DNA of 64,000 bases from a virus. Position numbers and translations under genes: made by a program. The stretch lies in IMG/VR virus record IMGVR_UViG_3300024999_000066, positions 25,920 through 89,919 of that record. One strand, given 5' to 3'. Of this stretch, positions 1,340 to 40,117 are shown one piece after another. The first letter of the stretch is position 1; each line of letters opens with the position of its first letter. A model generated the notes under the pieces. That model searched no databases. It was not told the DNA's origin and saw nothing but the letters and a program-made list of their open reading frames with translations.

Positions 1340-1800
1340 AAAGAATTTACAGGGCACAGCGGAGAATCTAAGACGCTGATCCGGCAAGATTGGAAGGCTT
1401 GTTCCTTTGTTAAGCTGACGAAGGATAACGGTGCATAATTCCCAGTGGGCATGTTGGTATGGAATGACCTTAAAATGGTCTGAGTTGGTTCGACTCCAAC
1501 CCCCTTGGGTGAAGATGAAGTGAGTACATCCCCTGTAAACCTAACTAAGCTTCGGCCTAGTATCTTCAAGTAAGTCCTAGTTCCTTGAAGAAAGCTTACT
1601 AAACCAACTAGTAAGTGTAATACCATTTCATGAAGAACAATACTTTCAACGTTTGTTGAAACCTTAGTGGATGGTGAAATGTCTACCCGAAAGGGCGTGG
1701 AGAGACTGAGTAAATCTTGTGCTCAGAGAGTTGTCAGGTCAGGTTAAGATTGTGGACGCTGACACAAGTATTTTATAAACCATATTAGAAGTGTGGTTGT
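1340..1800 (+). ncRNA. Candidate large structured non-coding RNA
   Basis: A 635-nt gene-free gap whose last 460 nt form hairpin after hairpin. Pairings include CAGCG/CGCTG (1357-1378), GACC/GGTC (1466-1480), a canonical T-arm GTTGG TTCGACT CCAAC (1484-1500), and CTAaGC(UUCG)GCcTAG (1545-1560). Further on are CTTCAAG/CTTGAAG (1564-1590), CTTACTA/TAGTAAG (1595-1615), TTTCAAC/GTTGAAA (1644-1661) and GTCT/AGAC enclosing CCC(GAAA)GGG (1681-1706). The series ends with CTGAG/CTCAG (1706-1726), GTCAG/CTGAC (1733-1763) and AACCATA/TGTGGTT (1778-1798). UUCG and GNRA tetraloops and the T-loop are hallmarks of folded RNA. The T-arm has only a truncated tRNA-like context (no variable loop, mismatched acceptor). 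Class unknown; large ornate phage RNAs (GOLLD, ROOL) that occur near tRNA genes are the first comparison. Confidence 0.6.
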
Positions 1801-4262: not shown

Positions 4263-5585
4263 ATGACAGAACAAAAGAAACTTCCGGGGCCGTGTTCATT
4301 ACGTCAAAGTATGTATATCGCCTCGGAGGCTGACGTAACCTTATTTGGTGGCGCAGCCGCGAGCGGAAAAAGTGAAATCGGCGTTATTGACTTCCTGAAG
4401 TATACAGACATTCCCAATTTCATTGGTGTAATGACACGTCGCACAACACCCCAGCTTAATGGTCCGGGTGGGTTGCTAACTAAATGTAAGCGTGTATTTA
4501 GTCAAGCATATAAACCAGATGAATATACTTGGCGAGCAAAAGATGGTAAGTTCGTGTTCCATGCCAGTGGTGCTGAAATTTATCTCAAGCACTTTGAGAA
4601 TGATGCAGCAGATGTGAACTGGCAAGGTTCTGAAGCGAATCTTTTCTATATCGATGAGGGAACCCAATATACGATGTATATGATACAATATATCATGTCT
4701 CGTATGCGTAATCCTTCATGCCCGTCAATCAAACCTCACCTCAAAATCACCTGCAATCCAGATGCCGATCACGGCCTCAGAAAGTGGGTAGAGCCCTACT
4801 TGCAAGAAGATGGTACTCCTGACCGTTCAAAAGACGGGATGTTGAGATACTTTTCTTTCATGGATGGTGACTTTGTTTGGGCTGACACTAAAGAACAACT
4901 CCTAGCTGAATACGGTGTAAGAGAGCAAGATGCTCTGTCTTTTACCTTTATTAGTGCTAACGTTTATGACAACAAAATTGTAGAAGAAGTTAACCCTAAG
5001 TATGTTGCTTGGCTTAAAGGTCTTCGCGGAACTGAACGTAAACGGCTCCTAGAAGGGAATTGGTTCGTTCGCGAAAGTGCAGCAGGATTCATGAAAAAAG
5101 AATTCTGTAGTAAGGTTAATTTGTTTGATAAAGAGATTGTGTCTTATTGTCGTGCGTGGGATATAGCAGGTTCGATTCCATCGGAAGCACTACCAAATCC
5201 CGACTGGACTGCTGGTGTTCTTATTGCTAAGACAAAACAAGGCAGATATATAGTAGTTGATGTAGTTAGATTTCGTGCAAGGTTTGGCGAAGTTATGGCT
5301 AAGATTATTGAAACTGCCAAGTCTGACCCTGAAGGCACACAAATCATTATCCCACAAGAACCCGGACAAGCTGGTAAAGCCGCTGGGCAGATGATGATTA
5401 AAGAACTTCTATCTGATGGATTTTACGCAAGAATGCGTCCATCTAATAAGTCCAAGATAATCAGGTTTCAGCCCTTCGCAGCAGCAGCAGAAGCTGGTCT
5501 TGTTGACTACGTTGAGGCTGATTGGAATGATACATATTTCGACGAGTTGGAAAGTTTTGACGGAAGTCGTAAGAATAAAGACGAT
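4263..5585 (+). CDS. terL: Terminase large subunit, exon 1
   Basis: The packaging motor and headful nuclease; exon 1 encodes 441 of 482 residues. The ATPase domain has Walker A GGAAASGKS (29-37) and Walker B LFYIDE (127-132). The C-terminal RNase H-like nuclease carries RAWDIAGS and IIPQEPG. Exon 1 ends at KDD. Without splicing the frame would run into intron sequence and stop at 5711, losing the conserved VDATSDSF segment. The ATG directly follows the endonuclease stop codon. It works with the portal encoded immediately downstream and a small terminase subunit, possibly the product of 787-1203. Confidence 0.93.
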
Positions 5586-5842
5586 TTATTAATCTTGGTC
5601 GTCTATAAACCCATTGAATTCGGTGGACCTCTCGTAAGAGACAATACCGAGCGAAGCCTAGTGATAGGAACGTGTAACGACTATCGAAAGCGCACAGTAA
5701 TGTGGAAGTGAGTAGAGTAGGGTCAAGTGACCCGAAGCGGTGGGCAAACAAAACTGTTTGAAGATATAGTCTCCTCTGTACAGTGATGTGCAGCAGTCGT
5801 ATACGACTGGATAAGATATAACGAATCTTATTTAAGATGATG
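5586..5842 (+). ncRNA. Group I self-splicing intron in terL (ORF-less)
   Basis: A 257-nt intron. P1 pairs exon AGACGAT (5579-5585) with guide GTCGTCT (5598-5604), giving the required U-G pair at the 5' splice site. P10 pairs CTTG (5594-5597) with exon-2 CAAG (5843-5846). P4 is CGGT (5621-5624) with ACCG (5646-5649). P5 is TCTC-GTAA-GAGA (5630-5641). P7 is GACTAT (5679-5684) with ATAGTC (5766-5771) inside the classic AACGACTA and AAGATATAGTC boxes. A P9-like CAGTCG/CGACTG hairpin lies at 5794-5809, and the intron ends in G5842. Joining the exons restores KDD-QVDATSDSF, the conserved terminase nuclease end. The layout resembles the T4 td-type subgroup. Confidence 0.93.
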
Positions 5843-39188: not shown

Positions 39189-39380
39189 TCACTTGTATGT
39201 CTCCGTAAATTCTTCATCTGTTGGGATAGTTCCTGAGATAACTACGTCACCAATAATATTTACAGTGTTATCTTTCATTGCAAGTTGAAGTAGCTTGTCT
39301 ACAGATGCTTGAAGTACAGCAATTTGAATGCTGAGTTCCGTATAGGCAGCACTGTTCACTTTCAATTTTTTGTCAGTCAT
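39189..39380 (-). CDS. Small unknown protein
   Basis: A 63-residue protein: Lys-rich start, a helix (YTELSIQIAVLQASVDKLLQ) and an acidic end. ATG overlaps the preceding TGA. No family recognised. Confidence 0.6.
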   Translation of the reverse strand: MTDKKLKVNSAAYTELSIQIAVLQASVDKLLQLAMKDNTVNIIGDVVISGTIPTDEEFTETYK

Positions 39381-39534
39381 TTTTATTACTCACTTTGAAT
39401 GTGTAAGTATCGAGAGGGAAATCCATAAGAACACCCTCTATGCGGAAAATCTGATCTTGTAGGGAAACTTCTTCTACATTAATAAATGTAAAGACTAACT
39501 TACCTGTCTCTTTGTTATGAATATCAACTTCCAC
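39373..39534 (-). CDS. Small unknown beta-rich protein
   Basis: A 53-residue protein starting at GTG behind a strong GAGGAGA site, with alternating strands (KLVFTFINVEEVSL, YTFKVSNKN). It overlaps the genes on both sides by 8-11 bp, which supports its being real. Confidence 0.65.
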   Translation of the reverse strand: MEVDIHNKETGKLVFTFINVEEVSLQDQIFRIEGVLMDFPLDTYTFKVSNKND

Positions 39535-40117
39535 TGTCTTTCTCCTCAATTAAACACTGTCTTACAGCATTTCTTCGTGCCTGTGGATTCTTAGCAACCT
39601 TTACTCCTCGATCACCAAGCCATTTATCAATCTGTGCAGCTTTCATCTTACAAATCTGAATTACTTCACGTTCGATCTTAGCATCATCAAAAGAGATGTT
39701 CAAGGACTCACTCAATGTTTTTGTACGATGGCAACCTTCTTTGCACAGCACTTGCAGACCATCAAAATTAACCATCAAAATATTATTGAAGTAGTTAGGA
39801 AAGTCTTCAACCTTTGTGAAGCTACTTCCTCCTACATGTACGTGGTCAATTTCTACGTCAGAAAGCTTGAACAAACCTTCACAAATCTCGCACCTTACCA
39901 ACCACTTGGTTCTAGTGCTATCGTCCATATCAGGTATGGTTTTGCTATACAAATAGGCCAATTTAACGTCTGATTTCATCCAAGCCTGTCTGATAGCAGA
40001 TCGTACAACAGAGACAACATGCTTCTCTTGTGGTGAACCGTCTTCGTTGAGCTTCTTCATGAACTCTTTTAGTTTGTCTTCACGCTTCTTGATATCTAGA
40101 GTTGATGGGACTGTCAT
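39524..40117 (-). CDS. HNH endonuclease beside 5'-3' exonuclease
   Basis: A 197-residue protein. Zinc and HNH residues read CEICEG...VEIDHVHVGG...NFDGLQVLCKEGCHRTKT, an EndoVII/HNH-like metal nuclease. Unlike the mobile genes nearby it overlaps the exonuclease gene by 4 bp and lacks NUMOD/AP2 modules. It may thus be a core replication/recombination nuclease rather than a homing enzyme. Confidence 0.75.
   Translation of the reverse strand: MTVPSTLDIKKREDKLKEFMKKLNEDGSPQEKHVVSVVRSAIRQAWMKSDVKLAYLYSKTIPDMDDSTRTKWLVRCEICEGLFKLSDVEIDHVHVGGSSFTKVEDFPNYFNNILMVNFDGLQVLCKEGCHRTKTLSESLNISFDDAKIEREVIQICKMKAAQIDKWLGDRGVKVAKNPQARRNAVRQCLIEEKDSGS

Follow-up and report, generated by a model that had tools for sequence, protein, structure and literature searches.

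Only a few large structured RNAs of phages lack an assigned role; two of these, GOLLD and ROOL, have recently been reported to build RNA-only cages, a 14-mer in the case of GOLLD. Both occur near tRNA islands and form cages; the linker of GOLLD can accommodate tRNAs, and in pull-downs this RNA was bound to ribosomes (PMC12286853).

The RNA described here lies in a 64,000-nt stretch (hereafter the window) of an 89.9 kb virus record (IMG/VR IMGVR_UViG_3300024999_000066). A sequence-only reading had proposed a large, densely folded non-coding RNA in a tRNA-like setting, either a member or a new class of GOLLD/ROOL-like RNA. The loci of related phages are referred to below by L numbers.

Identification and distribution of the RNA

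The RNA extended over approximately positions 1340-1776 (+ strand), from an AAAGAA lead to an A/U-rich 3' linker. Its ends were conserved among relatives; its length (about 440 nt) exceeded the 170-300 nt found in most of them. A further hairpin (1778-1798) lay beyond the 3' limit. As the sequence-only reading had noted, no sense gene covered it: open reading frames of at least 40 aa were absent from the + strand in 1204-1838, the sole long frame over the RNA was antisense (1279-1626, 115 aa), and the frames overlapping it in relatives were short and differed in length. The fold of 1340-1800 contained more than nine predicted hairpins and reached -131.2 kcal/mol, compared to -118.1±6.1 kcal/mol in dinucleotide shuffles (z = -2.2), none of the 100 shuffles being as low. 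The energy z-score alone is modest evidence for an RNA, and the comparative evidence is decisive. Inspection of the locus revealed no clear promoter or terminator of its own.

The Rfam 15 search of positions 1200-1900 returned nothing at gathering score, and up to an E-value of 10 only a sub-threshold tRNA-Sec match on a tRNA-like insert (1441-1509; cmscan, 17.1 bits against a threshold of 47). Among 14 relatives, only tRNAs and group I introns elsewhere were found. None of the families to which the sequence-only reading had pointed (GOLLD, ROOL, HEARO, tmRNA, group I) was thus present at 1340-1800, even at an E-value of 10. GOLLD (RF02032, gathering score 150 bits) had no match in 1200-1900 or in the 14 relatives, and the ROOL model was unmatched in the window and relatives. 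No Rfam match was obtained for a HEARO/IscB guide RNA, the downstream protein belonging to PHROG 13935, and the group I intron model (RF00028) matched at 5530-5793 instead. The search method works, as the same search found GOLLD in Acinetobacter phage Herod (225 bits). With Rfam blank, the suggested membership of a GOLLD/ROOL-like family fell away and the proposal of a new class was retained. When the RNA of the window was compared with 50,697 phage records at the nucleotide level, no homologue appeared, and the open-access papers searched contained no description of it.

A covariance model (R1) built from 16 relatives, with the window left out, recovered the window at 1541-1772 (77.4 bits; E = 2.9e-16). 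Overall, R1 gave 48 matches in 45 sources, window included, among them about 43 other IMG/VR phage contigs and the isolate Pseudomonas phage vB_PsaM_M1. The carriers, some 45 of which are known from R1, were related bacterial viruses of about 90 kb, normally with one copy of the RNA per genome (one in most of the 13 whole records searched with the model). A degenerate DNA pattern of hairpins A, B and C occurred in 26 IMG/VR stretches, most of them at the terminase locus and four by chance. Neither these four nor any of 24 bacterial contigs with chance matches to the pattern (0/24) was matched by R1. The isolates KPP10, phiPsa374, 20Sep416, Ep020, FO1a, Barba35A and Herod showed no convincing match to R1 or to a short A-B-C model (R2).

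The relatives shared a common structure with compensatory changes. In alignment A2 (22 pairs, with the helix set taken from relatives), the proportion of paired cells was 95.4%, whereas shuffles gave 73.9% and slid controls no more than 45%; 90 cells were changed on both sides (26.9 in shuffles), and the covariation score was 0.724 (0.293 in shuffles). None of 500 shuffles reached the observed pairing or covariation score in the tests on A2 and A5. In A5 (27 sequences), hairpin C was 100% paired, with five of its seven pairs changing on both sides. In a separate comparison of arms, hairpin C existed in 20 versions, all paired, compared to 56% after arm swapping. The arms of hairpin C had been picked by loop, pairing ignored, whereas those of P0, B, D and E had been picked for pairing, so that only their diversity counts. 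Hairpins A, C and E covaried, and in P0 and B the two arms had changed in a complementary manner. The large, densely folded RNA that had been proposed is therefore borne out by a fold below all shuffles, its many hairpins and the covariation in relatives, and the conserved structured family is almost certainly real.

Among the observations that the sequence-only reading had named as speaking against such an RNA, a lack of covariation did not occur, covariation being strong; another, relatives that keep flanking genes but not the hairpins, was encountered in four loci that retained the terminase gene without the RNA (L068, L071, L072 and L091). These four records, two of them of 85-89 kb, were searched whole and harbored no copy elsewhere either. 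The RNA is therefore accessory, dispensable in some lineages and not essential.

Helices and conserved motifs

Although direct BLASTN conservation of the RNA was low, a common plan could be read by eye from the equivalent locus of other phages. It consisted of an optional P0 helix, hairpin A (UUCG-type), GGUAUC, hairpin B (CCUAG loop) and hairpin C (constant UGGC loop), followed by AAAUGAC, hairpin D, GUGGAGA, hairpin E, hairpin F (AGG..GUGG) and AACUAUU.

In the window, the 5' arm of P0 (UUUACAGGG, 1346-1354, +) paired perfectly with its 3' arm (CCCUGUAAA, 1531-1539, +); P0 occurred in some relatives with other sequences, in at least seven distinct perfect versions. It enclosed 176 nt, including a degenerate tRNA-like fold (1441-1509, +; fold z = -2.1) without CCA, which comprised an anticodon-like hairpin (1466-1480, loop UUAAAAU) and a T-arm, GUUGG-UUCGACU-CCAAC, at 1484-1500. 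The T-arm that the sequence-only reading had called canonical was thus confirmed, but as part of this degenerate insert in P0, outside the core. The UUCG and GNRA loops it had listed were likewise present, as cUUCGg (loop 1551-1554) and CCC-GAAA-GGG (1686-1695).

All core features were on the + strand. Hairpin A (1545-1560), with its UUCG loop, was followed by a conserved UAUC, and its helix covaried in relatives. Hairpin B (1564-1590; fold z = -3.3) carried the conserved CCUAG(U) in its loop, with seven distinct perfect stems in relatives, these being chosen for pairing. At the position of hairpin C (1595-1615), relatives possessed a near-constant C(UGGC)G loop on 20 distinct stems, whereas the window had a plain 7-bp hairpin and had lost the UGGC loop. 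R2 matched the window weakly (1539-1601; 18.8 bits, E = 3e-4), so that the window is a divergent member in the A-B-C part. A candidate kissing contact between loops B (GCC) and C (GGC) was not supported, its complementarity not being maintained in L002, L054 and L079. An extra long hairpin (1622-1681) occurred also in L079. At the position of hairpin D (1686-1695), the window had CCC-GAAA-GGG and relatives UGAC-stem-GGAAAGAC-stem. The unpaired GUGGAGAG (1697-1704) was near invariant in A2. Hairpin E (1706-1726) was a covarying helix, for which relatives supplied 21 different stems (selected by their pairing), and hairpin F (1732-1764) contained the internal motif AGG...GUGG, conserved among relatives. 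The E and F part of the window closely resembled that of L010, L054 and L057, the last two being compact members of the family.

Hairpin D was also observed as a phage-wide element, with the form UGAC, a covarying stem of 4-5 nt, GGAAAGAC and the closing stem (e.g. L042:1818-1837, L101:2005-2024, L104:1833 and 2001, L157, L199:1501-1519). Two exact 20-mers of it were present in 93 and 89 IMG/VR stretches. Among the fetched loci it had 169 distinct contexts, often near tRNAs, and none of the first 83 was in a sense reading frame. A 181-nt stretch with hairpin D from E. coli phage mEpX2 had a partial or whole match in 2519 of 5426 E. coli genomes. No Rfam family was found for hairpin D.

Genomic neighbourhood and exchange of modules for tRNAs

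The gene order was terminase-small-subunit-like gene, RNA, 280-aa gene, 120-aa gene, homing endonuclease, TerL with a group I intron, and portal. The first of these (787-1203, +; 138 aa) was the constant upstream neighbour of the RNA. Its protein had no Pfam or PHROG name, so its designation rests on its position beside the TerL/portal operon. An alignment of this protein found 40 relatives, and TerL relatives shared the locus too. The window TerL shared at most about 51% identity with that of any named phage, and its closest matches came from Pseudomonas phages, Ep020 and KPP10 among them. In nearly all members, the RNA began 1-300 nt downstream of the terminase-like gene; other genes preceded it in L010, L037 and L057. 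On the other side, the next gene (1839-2681, +; 280 aa, unknown function, PHROG 13935/4770) varied between relatives. The RNA stayed while its downstream genes changed (phrog_13935 and phrog_4770 proteins, orf2818, HNH, tRNAs), which argues against control of one particular gene.

Outside the RNA, a hairpin with a long A-rich loop (1807-1837, +; GCAUUCC...GGAAUG, also in L010, L038 and L054) hides the ribosome-binding site of the 280-aa gene, and in relatives, analogous hairpins of other sequence preceded variable tail-fibre-like genes. Another conserved element, AGCAGACGAGGCUGCC...AAAGCCUGUGUUGUCUGUCUACAGGCUAUAA, was located 3' of the RNA before variable virion genes in L002, L011, L022, L042 and L055. 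The group I intron in the TerL gene (5585-5842, +) was matched by Rfam at 75.8 bits. L001 was continuous across the site, without the intron, and other relatives had related introns within TerL or just upstream of it.

The RNA is modular, and tRNAs replaced its modules or abutted its ends in relatives, in line with the tRNA setting suggested by the sequence-only reading. In L053, a tRNA-Thr stood exactly in the place of P0, between AAAGAAUA and the core, and tRNA-like sequences were seen by eye in the same place in L050 and L043. In L022, L086 and L089, a tRNA-Met located 8-9 nt after hairpin C replaced hairpins D-F, while in L015, L017 and L021 a tRNA followed the AACUAUU-type linker at the 3' end. 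In the isolate vB_PsaM_M1 (OP714164; host Pseudomonas sp. ZM01), the RNA lay at 39352-39561 and was followed by tRNA-Pro, tRNA-Asn and tRNA-Thr. The substitution of entire tRNAs for modules suggests a way in which large structured phage RNAs may arise.

Immediately before the terminase-small-subunit gene, a hairpin enclosed another tRNA-like sequence (660-760, +; T-arm GUAAG-UUCGAAU-CUUAC); in L024 this outer stem recurred around a different sequence. Upstream of the same gene, a second conserved structured RNA (412-655, +; fold z = -4.1 for 415-780) was shared by about 15 relatives. It was made up of hairpins bearing loops of the CUCUCC type, together with a closing hairpin, UUUCUAAAUAAUC...GAUUAUUUAGAAA. 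The loops were complementary both to AGGAGA, which resembles a Shine-Dalgarno sequence, and to the GUGGAGAG motif in the main RNA.

Possible roles and relation to known RNAs

A processed RNA acting in trans is suggested by the tRNA neighbours, the A/U-rich borders, the constancy of the unpaired loops and the variability of the genes downstream. Tentatively, it may be a free-standing, scaffold-type RNA cut from a tRNA/late transcript. It would be transcribed as one unit with the tRNA/terminase region and released through cuts in its A/U-rich linkers, made by the enzymes responsible for trimming tRNAs and late transcripts. It might then act in trans as a stable scaffold in the manner of GOLLD and ROOL and, by analogy with them, through self-assembly and/or ribosome or protein binding, tRNAs and tRNA-like folds serving as exchangeable outer domains around the hairpin A-B-C core. 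Four observations speak against this reading: the four relatives without the RNA, in which it is evidently not essential; a core smaller than that of GOLLD or ROOL; the unmaintained complementarity of loops B and C; and the lack of a clear promoter or terminator belonging to the RNA.

Alternatively, the RNA may be a cis-acting element of the late operon that stabilises the terminase-small-subunit mRNA, shields an extended untranslated region against Rho, or ties expression to the virion gene that follows. Its close position behind the terminase-like gene, with no clear terminator in between, and the occurrence of hairpin D in untranslated stretches of many phages are consistent with this. However, downstream genes vary, other genes precede the RNA in three loci, modules are exactly replaced by tRNAs, and loop sequences persist on changing stems, a constancy for which a hairpin that simply stabilises an mRNA would have no need. 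A cis role is thus unlikely, although worth taking seriously. A bolder form of the scaffold reading, in which the RNA would be a third kind of phage RNA particle, modular, using intact tRNAs as interchangeable structural domains around the A-B-C core and forming multimers or docking on ribosomes late in infection, is rather unlikely.

The complementarity to the second upstream RNA would also allow base pairing in trans, with the unpaired GUGGAGAG bound to its CUCUCC loops or to mRNAs. In seven phages, 7-9 contiguous Watson-Crick pairs could be formed between the GUGGAGAG site and the same phage's second RNA. However, the excess of own partners over swapped ones was small (7.9 and 7.3 pairs), and both motifs were near invariant, so that covariation cannot be shown; such pairing is improbable. 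That the RNA is a spacer or processing signal whose sole role is to separate or mature the tRNAs of an array accords with the tRNAs that abut either end or stand in for modules, but is quite improbable, as in most members no canonical tRNA adjoins the RNA, although hairpins A-C with their invariant loops are kept. A packaging RNA working with the neighbouring terminase, like phi29 pRNA, which the RNA resembles as a structured RNA constantly beside a packaging gene, is highly improbable given the usual TerL type of the terminase, the relatives without the RNA and the absence of any pRNA match at E-values up to 10.

For the preferred reading, a processed scaffold-type RNA, GOLLD and ROOL are the closest working models. 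One more class, unrelated to these two but from the same tRNA/terminase neighbourhood, would make it possible to test whether such RNAs share a role, and the new RNA is small enough for study and present in a phage isolate.

With tRNA and tmRNA, the window RNA shares the T-arm, the anticodon-like hairpin and an acceptor-like stem at 1441-1509, besides the replacement of modules by tRNAs in relatives. It differs in having no CCA and no tag frame, ARAGORN and Rfam (RF00005 included) made no tRNA or tmRNA call at threshold, and its core hairpins A-F are not tRNA-like. ROOL is likewise a phage or prophage RNA of unknown function near tRNA islands, but is longer (659 nt for ROOL env-120) and its Rfam model gave no match. 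GOLLD is similar in being a large phage RNA encoded within or close to tRNA clusters; it, too, is modular, tRNAs may occur in its variable 5' part, and it has many hairpins with stable loops. In Herod, whose terminase is distantly related to that of the window phage, GOLLD was located within a tRNA cluster upstream of TerL (L104:2991-3359, unannotated in the record), so the neighbourhood of the new RNA can hold GOLLD in a distant relative. However, many GOLLD RNAs exceed 800 nt, compared to 170-440 nt here, no sequence or covariance-model match links the two, and the new RNA has its own constant motifs (GGUAUC, CCUAG, C(UGGC)G, GUGGAGA and AGG..GUGG). With a core smaller than that of either, it belongs to neither GOLLD nor ROOL and constitutes a new family among the large structured phage RNAs near tRNA genes, unusual in that whole tRNAs replace its modules.
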